DNA of 64,000 nucleotides. Source: Nisaea sediminum (GTDB taxonomy: Bacteria; Pseudomonadota; Alphaproteobacteria; Thalassobaculales; Thalassobaculaceae). Under the pieces are notes generated by a model, which was given only the letters and a program-made list of their open reading frames with translations, searched no databases and had not been told where the DNA came from. Made by a program: the position numbers and the translations under genes. The stretch is from NCBI RefSeq assembly GCF_014904705.1, contig NZ_JACZCQ010000003.1, positions 310,001 through 374,000 on the forward strand, in the 5' to 3' direction. Each line of letters starts with the position of its first letter. Position 1 is the first letter of the stretch. Positions 51,147 through 64,000 of this stretch are shown here, in pieces.

Positions 51147-52310
51147 TCAGGTGACGACCGGAATGTCGCGCGGCGCGCGGCGTGTCAGCAACTCGGCGCC
51201 GCCGTCGCGGATCACGATGTTCTCCTCATGCACCATCATCAGCCCCGGCGCGTATTCGAGACCCGGCTCGAGCGTCAGCACCATGCCCGGGACGAGTTCC
51301 GTCCGGTCGCTCGCTGTGATCGACGGCCATTCGGTCAGCACCGTACCGAGCCCGTGGCCGATGCGGCCGACATTGCCCGCCCCCGCGCCGTCTGCGGAGA
51401 GCACGCCCGCCATGGCATTGAAAAGGTCGGCGCAGGTCGCGCCCGGCCGCGCTGCTTCGAGCCCCGCCTCCGTCGCCGCGAAGACCGTGCGATAGGCGCG
51501 CGCCACCGCGTCCGACGGCACGCCGATGGCGTAATTGCGGTCGAAATCGCAGAAATAGCCGTCATAGAGCGTGCCGGTATCGAGGATCAGCACGTCGCCG
51601 TCCTGCACCTCCCGTTCCGAAGGCGGCGAGATGATGTCGCCGTAGCCATCTGGCCCGGCGCCGCCGACGAGATAGGAGACATCGTCCGCGCCGGCCTCGA
51701 GGCAGGCGATCTTGAAGCGGCGGAAGATCTCCCGTTCGCTCATACCCGGCGCGAGCCAGCCGGACCAGTCCTCGAAGACGCCCGAGACGATCTCGCAAGC
51801 TGTCCCGATCTTGGCGATCTCGGCCTCGGACTTCACGATCCGGAGCGCCCGGACGATGCCCGCATCATCGCGGAACGTTGCTCCGCCAAGCAGGCCGCGC
51901 AGCCTGTCATATTCCGCGAGCGGCAGGCGGAGATGGGTCTCCGGGCCGGACGGGATGCCGATCCGCGGCGCCTCGCCAGCGAGCTCCCGCACCGTCTCCG
52001 CGAGGAGCGACAGCCCCTCGTCCGCCGGATTGGGCGAGGCCCAGGTGCGAATATCCTCGATCCAGGTCCGCTCCATCGCCGGCGCACCGATGCCTGGAAT
52101 GACCGCGACCGGCTTCCCCTCGGCAGGCACGAGCAGGAACCAGGGTCGCGTCGGGCTCTGCCAGAACTGGGTCAGGAAGCCGCTGAAATAGCGCACGTCC
52201 GGCTCGGTCGTGAGCAGCAGAAGGTCGAGCCCGGCCGCCGCCATCTGCCGCTGCGCGCGCTCCAGCCGCGCCCCGAACTCGGCGGCGGGGAAACCGCGCT
52301 GCGCGCTCAC
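51147..52310 (-). CDS. M24 family metallohydrolase (Xaa-Pro peptidase-like)
   Basis: 387 residues with the creatinase N-terminal domain and the pita-bread C-terminal domain. Metal ligands: ILDTGTLYDGYFCDFDRNY (two Asp) near 248-260, GHGLGTVLTEW (His) near 314, LTLEPGL (Glu) near 340, and MVHEENIVI (Glu) near 355. Members cut Xaa-Pro bonds or hydrolyse small compounds such as creatine or ectoine. The GTG start (VSAQRGF) overlaps the stop of the upstream ammonia-lyase gene by 4 nt (GTGA), so the two are translationally coupled. Confidence 0.85.
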   Translation of the reverse strand: MSAQRGFPAAEFGARLERAQRQMAAAGLDLLLLTTEPDVRYFSGFLTQFWQSPTRPWFLLVPAEGKPVAVIPGIGAPAMERTWIEDIRTWASPNPADEGLSLLAETVRELAGEAPRIGIPSGPETHLRLPLAEYDRLRGLLGGATFRDDAGIVRALRIVKSEAEIAKIGTACEIVSGVFEDWSGWLAPGMSEREIFRRFKIACLEAGADDVSYLVGGAGPDGYGDIISPPSEREVQDGDVLILDTGTLYDGYFCDFDRNYAIGVPSDAVARAYRTVFAATEAGLEAARPGATCADLFNAMAGVLSADGAGAGNVGRIGHGLGTVLTEWPSITASDRTELVPGMVLTLEPGLEYAPGLMMVHEENIVIRDGGAELLTRRAPRDIPVVT

Positions 52311-53515
52311 GCGGCGAGATCGCCGACGATGGATTTGTAGATCTCGGGATCGGTCGCGCCCTCGCTGCCGATCAGCAGCACGCGGCTCTCGGGGCCGAGC
52401 CCGATCCGCTCCTTCAGCTCCGGGTGCGCCGCCACCGCCATCAGGCCGAGCAAGCCGGCGACGCCGGACTCGCCGGCGGTGACCTTCGCCCCGGCTTCGC
52501 CGGACGCGAGCAGGCGCATGGCCGGGCCGACGCCCTCCTCGCCGACTGTGACATAGTCGGAGCAGCCGCCGGACAGGATCGGCCAGGCGACGAGCGACAT
52601 TTCCCCGCAGGAGAGGCCGGCCATAAGGGTTTCCTCGTGGATCGGCACGATCGCCGGCTTGTCCTGCCGCGCGCTCTCGATGGCGCATGCCGCAAGATCC
52701 GGCTCGACGATCACCGTGCGCGGCGCGGCGGCGCCGAGACGCTGCCAGAAGCGCGCGACCATCGCGGCGGCGAAGCCGCCGACACCGGCCTGCACGAACA
52801 TGTGGGTCGGCGCGGCGTCCGTCTGCGCCAGCACCTCGCTCGCGATCACCGTGTAACCCGCCATCACGTCGCGCGGGATGTCCATGTAGCCCGGATAGGA
52901 AGCGTCGGAGACGACGAACCAGCCGTTCGCCTTGGCCTCCCGCTCGCAATGCTTCAGCGATTCATCGTAATCGCCCGCGATCCGGCGAACCTCGGCGCCG
53001 AAGCCCTCCATCGCCGCTTTCCGACCCTCGCTGACCTCGGCATGGATGAAGATGACACAGCGGCAGCCCGCCATCTGGGCGCCCCAGGAAACCGAGCGAC
53101 CGTGATTGCCGTCGGTGGCGCAGGTGACGGTGAGATCCGTCAGCGCGCCGGCATATTTTCCGGAGCGGATGTCCGCCAGCGCGGCGTCGCCGTGGCCCTG
53201 TTCCACCAGCCATTTCCGCGCCAGCAGCATGACCGCGTAAGCCCCGCCCAACGCCTTGAAGCTGCCGAGCCCGAAGCGCGGCCCCTCGTCCTTGTAGATC
53301 ACGGAACCGACGCCGAGATGCGCGGCGAGCCCGTCGAGTTCGACCAACGGCGTTGCGGCATAGCCCGGCCAGGAAGAGATTTCGGCGAGCGCCGCCTCCG
53401 CCATCGCCGTCGGAAAGCCGGCTTCCAGCGCCGATGGCCAGACGCCCCCAAGGGTCGCGTGCGATGCGTGCTGGCGCAGCAGCTCCGGCGCCGTCAGTTC
53501 CCGTTCGATCTTCAC
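52307..53515 (-). CDS. Diaminopropionate ammonia-lyase-like PLP enzyme
   Basis: 402 residues, fold-type II PLP enzyme. The Schiff-base Lys is in GLGSFKALGGAYAV near residue 87; CATDGNHGRSVSWGAQMAG near 131 is the phosphate/nucleobase-type asparagine loop; and VQAGVGGFAAAMVARFW near 236 binds the cofactor phosphate. Length and pattern match diaminopropionate ammonia-lyases more than threonine dehydratase. Likely action: removing ammonia from a diamino or hydroxy amino acid. GTG start with a weak ribosome site. It is coupled to the M24 hydrolase gene. Confidence 0.82.
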   Translation of the reverse strand: MKIERELTAPELLRQHASHATLGGVWPSALEAGFPTAMAEAALAEISSWPGYAATPLVELDGLAAHLGVGSVIYKDEGPRFGLGSFKALGGAYAVMLLARKWLVEQGHGDAALADIRSGKYAGALTDLTVTCATDGNHGRSVSWGAQMAGCRCVIFIHAEVSEGRKAAMEGFGAEVRRIAGDYDESLKHCEREAKANGWFVVSDASYPGYMDIPRDVMAGYTVIASEVLAQTDAAPTHMFVQAGVGGFAAAMVARFWQRLGAAAPRTVIVEPDLAACAIESARQDKPAIVPIHEETLMAGLSCGEMSLVAWPILSGGCSDYVTVGEEGVGPAMRLLASGEAGAKVTAGESGVAGLLGLMAVAAHPELKERIGLGPESRVLLIGSEGATDPEIYKSIVGDLAA

Positions 53516-53556
53516 CTTGGCCGCCCCCTCGTACCCAAATCCGAGGTTAAGGCCCT

Positions 53557-53582
53557 ACTCCACCGTCACACTCTTCGCAAGG
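53557..53582. repeat. glmS 3'-end repeat, distal copy (candidate att site)
   Basis: 26 bases matching 56507-56532 with one mismatch (position 53570). Read on the minus strand it encodes LAKSVTVE followed by a TAG, the same last eight residues as GlmS. The intact glmS end is 2.95 kb away. It marks the far border of the inserted segment. Confidence 0.85.
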
Positions 53583-53612
53583 ATTGCCGCCGAACCGCTC
53601 TTCGGCCTCGGA

Positions 53613-55019
53613 TCAGGCGACCGCGGCCGTTTCCTCCGGATATCCCCTGGGAGAAGCACCAACCTGGAAGCGGGAATCGAAGCTGACACGATTCCGGACG
53701 AGGTTACGTTCCGTATAGGTCCTGTGGATCGAAGTCTTGTCGAACACCAGAATATCGCCAGGCTCGAAAGTCGGTCTGACCATGAAAGGCGCGAAGTATT
53801 CGACGGCATCTTCAAGAGGAACCGGGTTGATGTATTGCCCCCGCTCTCTGACAAAATGGATCGGGTGATTGACGCGGACGGGCAGAACCTCAAGCCCCGG
53901 GGCGATCCCCGGCCCGCACTCGACGAACGGCATCCAGATCGTGAACCAGTCTGCATTGTCCGCGTAGACGGGGTAGTCCTGATGCAGCGAGGTCGGCTTG
54001 GGATCCGACGGCTCATGCCACTGAAGCAGCCATTGACCATGTTTGTGGGGCTTCCATCCCTTTCCGCCCCACCGGCCGAGCGCTTGCAGAACATGTTTAC
54101 CGATGGACTCGCCGTTTAGAATTTCCAGAAGACGCGCCTGGACCGACTCAGACGCTTTTTTGAAGCCGACCGAACTCCTGTGCTCTTCCGCCATGTACTT
54201 GCGGAGCCATGGCTCGAGATCGGTTATCAGACTGTCAAAACCGGTCTGGGAGAGGGCCCCCCGCAAGACCGTGCCGCCAAACGTCTTGTAAGCGTGGCGC
54301 GCAGCGTCCTCCGCGTCGGCGGGGACGTCGATATCGCCGGCGCGATCATCGACCTGGAGTTCCAGATCCGCGACCCGCCTGTCTCCCCGTGCTCTCGCCA
54401 TCTGCCAGAGGCGAAAGCGCGCCGCCACGTGGCCGGGGTCGAGTTCGAGGGCCGTTTCGTATTCCCCGACGGCGGACCGAAGGTCGCCGAACTGCTGTTC
54501 GTACATCCCCGCGACATAGTGAGCCTCGGCAGATTGAGGGCGAATCCGCTTGCATGCCTCGACGGCTGCCTTCAGGTCTCCTGCACGGACATATTCCACA
54601 GGCGTGTCCAGCCAGACGCCAGCGACATTCATCCATGCATCGAAGTCATTCTCGTCCAGCTTGGTGAGAATGGACATGACCGTCACGGCATTCGCCGCGA
54701 GGTCGGGATTGGTCCAGAGACCGCTGTAGCCTATCAACGTGTGACCCAGCGCATATACGTCCCCGCGGGTCAGATAAGGTGACTGGATCATCGTCGCGAA
54801 AAGCGTGAGCGCCGGCTCCATGCGGTCCGTATGGAGCAGGTGATGGCCGATCGCACGCACCGCACGCGCGGAGGCATCCGACAACCCGCCGGAAACCGCC
54901 GCGCCGACCGTCGTCAGCACCGTCTGGTCGTCCAGAGTGTCGATGCAGGCGAGCAGCTCTGCCGCGCCCCCCTCGGCGAAGCTGGTGATCAAATCCTGAA
55001 TTCGGTTCATGCCGTTCAT
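53613..55019 (-). CDS. TPR-containing 2-oxoglutarate/Fe(II) dioxygenase (PhyH-like)
   Basis: 468 residues. The N-terminal half (about 1-260) is helical with a recognisable TPR unit, AEAHYVAGMYEQQFGDLRSAVGEYETALELDP near 158-189. The C-terminal half has the jelly-roll iron site HQDYP near 347 and the distal FDKTSIHRTY near 435 followed by Arg residues for 2-oxoglutarate, typical of phytanoyl-CoA-hydroxylase-like enzymes. It probably hydroxylates a small molecule or peptide. The start at 55019 overlaps the upstream methyltransferase stop by ATGA. Both genes lie in the glmS-end island. Confidence 0.78.
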   Translation of the reverse strand: MNGMNRIQDLITSFAEGGAAELLACIDTLDDQTVLTTVGAAVSGGLSDASARAVRAIGHHLLHTDRMEPALTLFATMIQSPYLTRGDVYALGHTLIGYSGLWTNPDLAANAVTVMSILTKLDENDFDAWMNVAGVWLDTPVEYVRAGDLKAAVEACKRIRPQSAEAHYVAGMYEQQFGDLRSAVGEYETALELDPGHVAARFRLWQMARARGDRRVADLELQVDDRAGDIDVPADAEDAARHAYKTFGGTVLRGALSQTGFDSLITDLEPWLRKYMAEEHRSSVGFKKASESVQARLLEILNGESIGKHVLQALGRWGGKGWKPHKHGQWLLQWHEPSDPKPTSLHQDYPVYADNADWFTIWMPFVECGPGIAPGLEVLPVRVNHPIHFVRERGQYINPVPLEDAVEYFAPFMVRPTFEPGDILVFDKTSIHRTYTERNLVRNRVSFDSRFQVGASPRGYPEETAAVA

Positions 55020-56419
55020 CCTGTTGCCGCGCTCTGATGCGCGCGCCACGCTCCCGAGAGGAAAAGTTCCGAATTCCGTCGATGCTCCGGCGCAAGTTGA
55101 GCACCGGCTGTTTCGACGGATCGCTTCAGATAGGAGAGGTAGAATTCCATCACCTGGTCGCGATGGACCCGCAATTTCACGGTCATGGTGCACAGATAGA
55201 GCAATATTTCGGCCAACAAGGGGGCAAGGTCCGGTCTGGACTGGAGGCATGCCTCCAGCAACGGCGCCGGGCCGGAATATCTCTGCAGAAGGTAGCAGGC
55301 CGAGAGCGCTCGGCGCATGGCGTCCTGCAGCCGGGCCTCCGCTCCGGCTTCCTGAGCCGTGCCGGCCGATGCTTCAACCGCATCGCCCACCGCCGCTACG
55401 ACGTCCGAAATCAGCGCATCGCTTCGTTCCAGGATCTCGATCCTGTCAAGCAGCAAGCCGAGATTGTCTGCATCCGACGCCTGCGCCCGGTCGATCCGCG
55501 CCTCGGCGACATCATGAAATCCGGCGGCACTCGCCGCCATCGCCACGGCCCAATCAATGGCCGGGCCCTCTTCCCCTGTATGCTCGCGGCTCAAGGCATC
55601 GAGCCCCGCCGCCAGGACCGGATCATCGGAAGCGGCTCCGTCCGGGACGAGTGCGCGAACGCATTCCGGCGAATGGGGCGGGAGCAGCGCCAGCGCAACA
55701 GACGCTTCTCGCTGAAGCGCATCGTCGCCGGTTTGCTCCGCCAGAGCCTTCAACGCTTCCCAGGATTTGAGGCGGTAGCAGTCGTTCTTCAGGATACGCC
55801 GGAAATCCTCGACCCGCCCTCGGCCGGCCTGAAGCGCCTGAAGAGCCTCCGCTTCAAACGCGTCGACGGTGAGAGAGGTCTTCTGCCATACGCCGTACCC
55901 GTTGTTGTAGGGCTGCGCATAGACCTCGAAGGACCCGAGCAGTTTCCTTCGGAAATCCCGATACCAGACCTGTTTGATGCCTTCGCCCGAGTCGAGGCGA
56001 ACGTCATGCCAGACCACCAGACCGCCCTCCCGCAACAGAGGGAGATACATTTCCGTGTCTTGTATGACACCGTCGACACTGTGATCGCCGTCGATCAGCA
56101 TGAAATCAAATTCGGGCGACACGGCGCGGACGGCTTCCAGCATTGCCGGATCGTGCGAATCACCGATCTGAAAGCTGATATTCTCGAGGGCACGGATCCG
56201 TGGGTCGACGAGTTCGTCCGTGATGTCGAGCGCGACCACGATGCCGTCAGGACCGACGATCCGGCTGAACAGCCCGGTTGTCCCGCCTTGAGCGACGCCG
56301 ATCTCGAGCACTCTCTTCGGCTGCAGCGCGATCAATTGCTCGATGAGCCAATGTATTTCCGACGTCGTTTGCCAGCTGACATCAAGAATGTCTTTGAACT
56401 CGGAGATATCGACCTGCAT
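55016..56419 (-). CDS. SAM methyltransferase with unidentified helical C-terminal half
   Basis: 467 residues. Residues 1-180 form a class I methyltransferase of the Methyltransf_24/cephalosporin-hydroxylase-like type: RVLEIGVAQGGTTGLFSRI near 36-54, then FDFMLIDGDHSVDGVIQDTEMYLPLL near 104. The remaining roughly 280 residues are helical and rich in Ala, Asp and Glu, without a match I recognise, perhaps repeat-like. The ATG at 56419 is used; a GTG three codons earlier is possible. Probably acts on the same substrate as the coupled dioxygenase. Confidence 0.75.
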   Translation of the reverse strand: MQVDISEFKDILDVSWQTTSEIHWLIEQLIALQPKRVLEIGVAQGGTTGLFSRIVGPDGIVVALDITDELVDPRIRALENISFQIGDSHDPAMLEAVRAVSPEFDFMLIDGDHSVDGVIQDTEMYLPLLREGGLVVWHDVRLDSGEGIKQVWYRDFRRKLLGSFEVYAQPYNNGYGVWQKTSLTVDAFEAEALQALQAGRGRVEDFRRILKNDCYRLKSWEALKALAEQTGDDALQREASVALALLPPHSPECVRALVPDGAASDDPVLAAGLDALSREHTGEEGPAIDWAVAMAASAAGFHDVAEARIDRAQASDADNLGLLLDRIEILERSDALISDVVAAVGDAVEASAGTAQEAGAEARLQDAMRRALSACYLLQRYSGPAPLLEACLQSRPDLAPLLAEILLYLCTMTVKLRVHRDQVMEFYLSYLKRSVETAGAQLAPEHRRNSELFLSGAWRAHQSAATG

Positions 56420-56504
56420 TGGCACCACAAATTCTGGTTACAAATCCAAGGCGACCGTAGCACACGAGCAGGTAGTGTTCCCGCACTAAAGTCCCGCCCT
56501 CACC

Positions 56505-58328
<1,824 letters not shown>

Positions 58329-60972: not shown

Positions 60973-62337
60973 ATGATATTAAAAACAAAAAAAAATATTT
61001 CTCAGCACAATATTCCACAACTCCTAATATATTTTGTTTTTTTATTAATAATAATTAGATCAATTCCATTCATTGCCTCATCAATATTTATAGGATTTTT
61101 CTCGTTTGGACAATTTCTTGATTCAGGAATTGAAAGAAATGAAACAATAATAGGAAGTATTATATCATTAATTGGAATATCTATTTATTTTCTTTACGCA
61201 TTTTACGGACTCAAAGGCATTACTCGTATCTTAGAATCGCCGAGCCCTTTAGATAAAATTAATTCCAGAAAAAGTGAATTCATACTTTTTATTACATTCT
61301 CTTATCTTTTTCATATCGCGCCATACGGAATATCTCCCATCGAAAATGCATTACATGATACTGGAATACTTCAAATATCTAATATTGCCCCCGAGTATCT
61401 TGTTGACATACCCATTCTATTTATCCTGGCAAGTTTCAACGAAAAAATTCGGGCATTCATAAAAAAACTATCATCACTTATTGAAAATCACACACAGACA
61501 AACACAGCAAGAAAAAGACAAAAAACCAACGACACCAATAATCGAAGTGAAAATTATATAATAAAATCAGATCCCGTTTCAGATAAATTGCGACAAAGAG
61601 CACTTTATTCAAGAATTTCTGCATATATTATACTTATATTTATAGTTGCCTTAATAATAGGCCTTTCAGCTATAATATTGAGAACCCTTCAAGAAACGAG
61701 CCTTGCCGCACCCACGAGTGGAATTGGACGACTAATTCAAGAAGAATCTGATGTTAGGGAAAAAATAAATAACGCTTCCCTTCAACTTTCTGAAGCATTC
61801 CATTCAATCGGTATTTCATCAGAAATTAGTGGATTGGGTGATATAGGATCTGGCCCCGTCCCGCAAATCAACTATTCATATATTTTGAAAGATATGAATA
61901 GCAAAATAAAAGAAGAAGAAAAAAATGATATAAAATCACTTATACTTCGATATAACAATCTAGCCGTCTCATTGTCGGCAATAATTGAAAGACGGGCCAA
62001 TGAAAAAAGCACCGACCAATCCGTATCTGATAGAAATTTCTTTTACTCTGCAGCGCAATCAACGCTTGTACGAATAGGATTTGCCATCGTAATACTTTAT
62101 CTTGTAGGGCTTCTTTTTAATCTTTACAGATATATAACTCGGCTAGCGGCTGCATATGATTCTCAGGCCGATGCAATTGAACTGATCGTCTACGATTCTG
62201 AAAAACTAAAGACTCTCGTGGAGGCTTTATCGCCCGAAGCTTATGATTTCGGTAAACCTCCGAACACCCCTATGAAAGAGGTGTCTAGACTATTAGCTGC
62301 AGCTAGTAACATTAGGGGAAAAGCAACAGAAAAATGA
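60973..62337 (+). CDS. AT-rich orphan membrane protein, unknown function
   Basis: 454 residues. Codons are strongly A/T-ending, and Lys, Ile and Asn are abundant, unlike every other gene in the window, so recent acquisition is likely. Predicted topology by eye: four hydrophobic segments in the first 160 residues (for example LLIYFVFLLIIIRSIPFIA), a basic hydrophilic linker with KKTNDTNNRSE-like composition at about 165-205, a segment IILIFIVALIIGLSAII near 215, a roughly 130-residue polar and partly coiled-coil stretch, then VRIGFAIVILYLVGLLFNLY near 365 and a cytoplasmic tail (DSQADAIELIVYDSEKL). I do not recognise the family; no catalytic motif is seen. It stands alone on the far side of the tRNA gene. 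Confidence 0.7.
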   Translation: MILKTKKNISQHNIPQLLIYFVFLLIIIRSIPFIASSIFIGFFSFGQFLDSGIERNETIIGSIISLIGISIYFLYAFYGLKGITRILESPSPLDKINSRKSEFILFITFSYLFHIAPYGISPIENALHDTGILQISNIAPEYLVDIPILFILASFNEKIRAFIKKLSSLIENHTQTNTARKRQKTNDTNNRSENYIIKSDPVSDKLRQRALYSRISAYIILIFIVALIIGLSAIILRTLQETSLAAPTSGIGRLIQEESDVREKINNASLQLSEAFHSIGISSEISGLGDIGSGPVPQINYSYILKDMNSKIKEEEKNDIKSLILRYNNLAVSLSAIIERRANEKSTDQSVSDRNFFYSAAQSTLVRIGFAIVILYLVGLLFNLYRYITRLAAAYDSQADAIELIVYDSEKLKTLVEALSPEAYDFGKPPNTPMKEVSRLLAAASNIRGKATEK

Positions 62338-63572: not shown

Positions 63573-64000
63573 ATGCTGTCGCCTGAAGGACGGGTCATTC
63601 TGGTTACCGGAGCCAACCGGGGCATCGGGCTGGCGATCGCCAAGAGTCTTGCCGCGCGGGGCTACACGCTCAGTCTCGGTGCCCGGCGCCCGGAGACCAT
63701 CCCGCTCGCGGAGATCGGCGGCGATCCGATGGTGCATCACTGGGACGCGGAGGCGCTGGAAACGTCGGCTGGCTGGATCGAGGCCACGATGGCCCGCTAC
63801 GGGCGCATCGACGGCGTCGTGCTGAATGCCGGAATCGAGATCGGCGGCTCCCTCGAGCACGGCACGGAAGAGGAATTCGACAGGATGTTCTCGGTCAATT
63901 TCAAGGGGCCGCTCTGGCTGGCGCGGGCCGCGCTGCCGCATCTGAGAACCTCCGGCGCCGGCCGGGTGATCAATATCGCCTCGCTTGGCGGCAAGCGCGT
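63573..64000 (+). CDS. Short-chain dehydrogenase/reductase (3' end outside window)
   Basis: 142 codons visible. Cofactor motif VTGANRGIGLAIAKSL near 11, VVLNAGIEIG near 83 (NAG motif), and INIASLGGKR near the cut end, where the catalytic Ser lies; the YxxxK follows beyond the window. GGGAGGAAG precedes the ATG. The classical SDR fold is clear; the substrate is not. Confidence 0.88.
   Translation, partial: MLSPEGRVILVTGANRGIGLAIAKSLAARGYTLSLGARRPETIPLAEIGGDPMVHHWDAEALETSAGWIEATMARYGRIDGVVLNAGIEIGGSLEHGTEEEFDRMFSVNFKGPLWLARAALPHLRTSGAGRVINIASLGGKR

Follow-up and report, generated by a model that had tools for sequence, protein, structure and literature searches.

Integration at the 3′ end of a gene is a known kind of event, exemplified by e14 and phage 21, which integrate at icd and rebuild the 3′ end of that gene, whereas glmS is scarcely described as a target. 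Here we describe a two-gene islet bracketed by two copies of the glmS 3′ end in Nisaea sediminum, on contig NZ_JACZCQ010000003.1 (assembly GCF_014904705.1, positions 310,001 to 374,000; this 64,000-nt stretch is called the window, and all coordinates refer to it). The islet looks like an old, foreign, conserved and recombinase-free remnant of integration into the glmS 3′ end. It shares with prophages and islands at the 3′ ends of protein genes a gene end restored by the attachment (att) site of the element, a displaced far copy, and direct repeats in the same orientation; it differs from them in its target, in having two genes only, and in that no integrase is left.

Two other described systems come close. 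Like the Nisaea islet, Tn7 is directed to glmS without disrupting the gene, but it has transposase genes, inserts beyond the gene end and, to our knowledge, leaves no copy of that end. In PMC3064760, PMC8239412, PMC4046053, PMC12146696 and PMC12286353, the text on glmS deals with Tn7, mini-Tn7 or laboratory insertion downstream of the gene, and the main text of PMC10083194 does not contain the term. A literature search found no site-specific integration into the glmS 3′ end beyond Tn7-type elements, although subscription journals were largely uncovered and the result is weak evidence of novelty. The second system is the additive flexible genomic islands of Methylophilaceae, in which repeated copies of the final 20 nt of tRNA-Lys serve as markers (PMC10872708). 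These islands resemble the Nisaea islet in having variable genes marked by repeats of a conserved gene end; the Nisaea islet differs in targeting a protein gene, in consisting of one unit, and in being inherited vertically in two species. The same source describes a xerD-bearing tycheposon whose start is at tRNA-Met and whose end is marked by glmS, the first conserved gene.

Filled and empty glmS sites in Nisaea

The locus comprises the following features.

52307–53515, minus strand: diaminopropionate ammonia-lyase family gene, directly 3′ of glmS in empty-site genomes (NF006058, E=2.1e-133)
53516–53554, minus strand: host-like DNA of 39 nt, from the distal-copy stop to the next gene
53557–53582, minus strand: distal repeat copy (25/26 here, 26/26 in G019)
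53583–56506, no strand assigned: islet between the repeats, GC 61.3%, missing here in G016, G017 and G018
53613–55019, minus strand: TPR-dioxygenase gene, with TPR at residues ~130–215 (TPR models) and a C-terminal half like Fe(II)/2-oxoglutarate dioxygenases
55016–56428, minus strand: S-adenosylmethionine-dependent methyltransferase gene, domain at about residues 19–150 (PF13578, E=7.6e-12; PF04989, E=1.8e-11)
56505–58328, minus strand: glmS, complete, 607 aa, stop TGA (NCBIfam TIGR01135, E=1.1e-223, model positions 1–607)
56507–56532, minus strand: glmS-side copy of the 26-bp direct repeat (att-like)

A search for the repeat in the family covered 36 genomes, with a match in 12; five genomes were Nisaea. 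Two copies were found exactly 2,950 bp apart in the window genome (G000) and in G019, and one copy in G016, G017 and G018. Gene mapping showed that glmS is followed directly by the ammonia-lyase gene in the latter three, and that both cargo genes lie between these neighbours in G000 and G019, where the cargo proteins are 90–91% identical. The single-copy empty site proposed as a check in the initial annotation, which was made from the letters alone, was thus present in three of the four congeners, the fourth being filled; the opposite pattern, in which all relatives carry the two genes without a second copy, was not observed.

Alignment of filled and empty junctions gave the pattern of attL and attR against attB. 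On its left the filled site is flanked by DNA similar to the empty-site flank, and on its right it matches the glmS body, which is unbroken. The block common to the junctions is ACTCCACCGTCACRCTCTTCGCAAGG, which spans 26 bp and is sharply delimited in G000 and G019 alike. Beyond the distal copy in these two genomes, 39 nt separate the stop codon from the next gene; the corresponding spacing is also 39 nt at the empty site of G016, and 35 nt at those of G017 and G018. The glmS stop is TAA in the three empty sites and TGA in the filled sites, and the displaced copy ends in TAG; this distribution of stop codons is what an element that brought along the glmS-side ending should produce. The empty sites, the junction alignment and the complete glmS all support the proposed integration into the glmS 3′ end with the host gene left intact, and the occurrence of filled and empty sites within one genus makes Nisaea an unusually clean case.

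The repeat itself proved real. The two copies have the same orientation and differ at one of 26 bases, as the initial annotation had noted, although its description of them as the last 26 bases of glmS was off by two: the repeat takes in the final 25 bases of the coding sequence and, of the stop codon, only the first base. Its further observations also stood: the distal copy translates as LAKSVTVE followed by a stop codon, TAG (53555–53557), glmS is intact, as its full-length match to TIGR01135 confirms, the copies enclose only the methyltransferase and TPR-dioxygenase genes, coupled by ATGA (55016–55019), and the segment contains no recombinase. The 25-mer, with up to three mismatches, occurred at two sites only in the whole genome (5.02 Mb, 22 contigs), and its reversed pattern gave 0 matches in the same genome. 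In a scan for weaker copies 3′ of glmS at 90 loci, from which L084 was omitted because its downstream stretch was too short, the two Nisaea islets scored 24 and 26, against a maximum of 16.5 in 180 control comparisons. On these three results we rejected a chance repeat. The second copy is missing exactly where the cargo is missing, which also contradicts both a coincidental repeat and a tandem duplication that arose locally in glmS independently of the insertion; we found no point in favour of either origin and regard them as vanishingly improbable.

The favoured and probable course of events is a site-specific recombination at the ~26-bp glmS end that put the two genes into the ancestor of the Nisaea pair, with the recombinase either lost or acting in trans. 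Before the two species diverged, the methyltransferase and dioxygenase genes would have arrived on a circular DNA, or on some larger element, that recombined at the ~26-bp site formed by the glmS end in their common ancestor. With an att site on the element mimicking that end, glmS would have regained a complete ending (TGA with element DNA downstream), and the original ending would have been displaced to the far border. The exchange would have been made by a site-specific recombinase, more likely of the tyrosine than of the serine type, since a 26-bp core would suit a tyrosine recombinase, and the enzyme may later have been deleted or may have been supplied in trans.

The target duplication of Tn7 is 5 bp, short in comparison with the 26-bp repeat of the islet. 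This difference, together with the position of the junctions at the last glmS codons, bears out the earlier remark that Tn7 fits poorly; neither islet gene is a Tn7 gene, and we rejected Tn7 on the junctions and the lack of Tns genes. An insertion of a Tn7-family element at attTn7 thus has next to no likelihood, even though glmS is the Tn7 target (PMC10293859 and PMC4046053). The islet rather points to a landing site in glmS other than that of Tn7.

Content, age and origin of the islet

The two cargo genes leave non-coding remainders of 30 bp and 78–87 bp, too small for a recombinase gene, and no recombinase family matched inside the islet that they occupy. The methyltransferase, whose ATG start may lie at 56419 instead of 56428, is of the Methyltransf_24/CmcI type; its C-terminal half matches no family, and it scores far below the cut-off of the rhamnosyl O-methyltransferase model. 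The dioxygenase-like half of the second protein resembles phytanoyl-type enzymes, with matches to NF045813 (E=4.3e-5, below the cut-off) and PDB 2rdn (E=8e-4), and no Pfam dioxygenase model matched the protein at E up to 0.5. It contains HQD (HxD) at 346 and H at 432, which would fit the dioxygenase motif, and a further HxD at 63. Judged from these domains, modification of a surface glycan or a small molecule is the probable role of the cargo.

A tree built from GlmS, GlmU and succinate-semialdehyde dehydrogenase, with G010 as the outgroup, had the topology ((G000,G019),G016),(G017,G018) with local supports of 0.999–1.000, and the presence pattern is explained by one gain on the branch ancestral to the G000/G019 pair. 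Between these two genomes the cargo shows no stops and no gaps, a synonymous divergence (dS) of 0.40–0.42 (glmS 0.24, glmU 0.32, ammonia-lyase 0.39), and a ratio of nonsynonymous to synonymous divergence (dN/dS) of 0.11–0.12. The GC content at third codon positions (GC3) is 71–73% in the cargo and 85–89% in four neighbouring genes, and overall GC is 61.3% in the islet versus 66.5–69.6% in glmS, glmU and ammonia-lyase. The islet is probably foreign; it was gained once, has been resident since before the two species split, and is kept by selection, which on the cargo is purifying. The cargo has diverged about as much as its neighbours, which indicates long residence and argues against a currently mobile satellite, so that the mobilisable satellite put forward in the initial annotation is disfavoured; in its present state the islet resembles a stably fixed chromosomal segment.

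Relatives of the cargo were sparse and partial. Among 386 alphaproteobacterial genomes, the two proteins gave, beyond their own genome, two domain-level matches at E<=1e-10 (G339 and G389); at most two candidates per genome were scored, and distant relatives may escape such a search. The methyltransferase matched in 16 of the 36 genomes of the family at E<=1e-3, at the domain level except in G000 and G019; among contigs of close relatives it matched that of G019 only, and elsewhere it matched two phage and three plasmid records, all at the domain level (23–29% covered). The TPR-dioxygenase had no match in plasmids, phages or viral contigs. Six PF00589 tyrosine recombinase proteins are encoded elsewhere in the window genome. 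At 91 loci, the region 3′ of glmS gave no tyrosine recombinase match to a profile made from six sequences, a weak test.

Other glmS ends and serine-recombinase islands

A degenerate LAKSVTVE pattern, with one base mismatch allowed, matched in 349 of 387 alphaproteobacterial genomes. In 22 genomes the pattern occurred at least twice on one strand, and six had two same-strand copies within 7 kb (G000, G036, G193, G200, G284 and G439); the scan was blind to pairs across two contigs or on opposite strands and to shorter or more diverged copies. Different cargo between two copies, which had been anticipated for other strains, was seen in none of the Nisaea genomes but, at the corresponding place, in five other genomes of this set. 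Close pairs are rare, as a denser draw from the order of G284 yielded one such same-strand pair among 188 genomes, G284 itself, with two or more same-strand matches in 10 of the 188. Weaker copies at 60 further alphaproteobacterial loci gave nothing convincing: three loci scored at least 15 (17.0, 16.0 and 16.0), compared with two of the 180 controls.

In three of these genomes, small genes separate the full-length glmS from a partial copy of its end that is longer than the Nisaea repeat. In G036 (L083, 8456–9364) a 129-bp repeat, 93% identical, surrounds one open reading frame (ORF) of 172 aa without a family; in G439 (L084, 8331–9750) a 286-bp repeat, 95% identical, surrounds nucleotidyltransferase, DUF4160 and DUF2442 genes; and G200 (L085, 9985–11191) has tandem glmS-end units, the first consisting of a small gene, ParD-like only by its position upstream of ParE, and a ParE toxin gene, and the second containing the same small gene again. 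Such loci suggest a homology-driven capture, in which foreign cargo next to a glmS end enters by homologous recombination in glmS and leaves a second piece of that end, either through a single crossover of a circle or through one homologous end and one illegitimate joint. Variable repeat lengths fit homology better than one enzyme, and the longer repeats favour this route for G036, G439 and G200 themselves. Some phage att sites nevertheless carry long gene ends, as for e14 and phage 21 at icd, and long repeats do not exclude recombinases. For the Nisaea islet, whose sharply bounded 26-bp block is short for RecA-type exchange in either species, homology-driven capture is the main rival reading; it is unlikely, though by no means negligible.

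In G284, rmlB, D, A and C-type genes lie between glmS and a 34-bp copy (29/34). In its genus, presumably Devosia, rml genes occur 3′ of glmS in eight of 14 other genomes, where no second copy was found, and were not found in the remaining six within the 12–15 kb examined. We did not count G284 as a second clean recombinase-free metabolic islet, the inserted segment being ambiguous given the eight relatives. Separately, across the 14 genomes of this genus (L116–L129) the rmlBDAC-type genes and two flanking genes vary in order and presence 3′ of glmS.

The last pair, in G193, involves a large serine recombinase (LSR). A 23-bp repeat (22/23) surrounds a 6.6-kb island, each end of which holds LSR-type pieces (L086, 5318–6043 and 10389–12006); these form an inverted, broken serine recombinase, each part abutting a glmS end, with a C-terminal piece at one end of the island and three open pieces at the other. 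An LSR piece was found in two of 25 genomes of this order, G193 and G282; in G282 the broken fragment begins 34 bp after the glmS pattern and was missed by the LSR-profile scan.

Scanning IMG/VR for the pattern revealed a glmS end in 83 stretches, of which 80 were analysed. Relatives of the G193 recombinase piece were present in five of the 80 (L157, L167, L184, L203 and L206), and a profile from those five added L151, with weaker matches to small resolvases in L157, L206, L186 and L167. In L157 (1–10729) and L206 (1–10823) an island follows directly after the glmS end and has an LSR gene near its far border; the L157 recombinase contains Resolvase, Recombinase and Zn-ribbon domains, and its island also carries a small resolvase and a cytosine DNA methylase. 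The borders read glmS ...GTGACAGTGGAATAAATTTCG on one side and CGAAATTTATTCCATCAC(A/T)GT(G/C)GAGTAAG on the other, beyond the recombinase gene; 11/12 and 9/12 bp are common to the glmS end and the distal remnant in L157 and L206, respectively, and the DNA past the far border differs between the two. With both borders visible, the T-V-E-stop codons of glmS are the putative integration site of this LSR family. A different class of site-specific recombinase would then act at the glmS end that is occupied in Nisaea, which counts in favour of site-specific integration there. The six LSR islands (L157 and L206, with L184, L203, L167 and L151 alike) share with the Nisaea islet the landing codons and a complete glmS end, and differ from it in carrying an LSR and in a common border of ~12 bp where both borders were read (L157 and L206).

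These islands, and the glmS-end-bracketed G193 island with its broken pieces, raise the idea that the Nisaea islet is the remnant of an LSR island whose recombinase was deleted. The L157 and L206 borders, however, share ~12 bp and include a TTCCATCAC border beside the LSR gene, while the Nisaea repeat is 26 bp without such a border, and no LSR-profile match was found in the Nisaea loci L018 and L020. Durrant et al. excluded att centres of >20 bp from their high-quality LSR candidates, according to the main text of PMC10083194. The islet is probably not a deleted member of the L157/L206 family, an argument from border sequences that is weakened by G193, where a 23-bp repeat accompanies LSR pieces and a longer repeat is thus compatible with an LSR. 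Overall we consider an LSR remnant very improbable.

Several observations weigh against a site-specific recombination in Nisaea. The 26-bp common block alone cannot separate a recombinase from short-homology joining, no clear inverted half-sites were seen by eye within it, and repeat lengths of 23 to 286 bp in the other bracketed islets are not expected from one recombinase. Neither a recombinase in or beside the islet nor an autonomous relative was found: an IUPAC pattern of the core had 0 matches in viral contigs, the islet DNA had no match in plasmids, and no full-length cargo relative was present among the candidates scored in the 386 genomes. The cargo dN/dS is about twice the 0.05–0.07 of its neighbours, and the islet GC is near the window mean of 63.0%, so that foreignness rests on GC3 relative to the four neighbours. 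What the islet does show is an empty site, border repeats equal to the target core, a complete target gene and deviating GC3; the integrase gene is missing.

The glmS end as a possible landing site

The gene glmS is essential, and its last codons are strongly conserved (the 349 of 387 genomes above), which together make a good safe site, as Tn7 shows. A tentative and rather doubtful generalization would make these codons a general, Tn7-independent landing site, both for LSR islands and for tiny recombinase-free cassettes of cargo plus a glmS end, the Nisaea islet being one such cassette. The small cassettes would insert through their own glmS end, with a recombinase supplied in trans or by homology, and the Nisaea islet would then be the protein-gene counterpart of the additive islands at tRNA ends. 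If unrelated systems use the same codons and rebuild the gene, glmS would be a shared safe harbour, and a search for second glmS ends would reveal small islands that go unnoticed for want of a recombinase.

Elsewhere in the window, no second copy of the end of a tRNA-Val gene was found up to position 64000. An ORF of 454 aa without a family (60973–62337) begins 252 bp after this tRNA-Val and has a GC3 of 24%, versus 85–89% in neighbouring genes.

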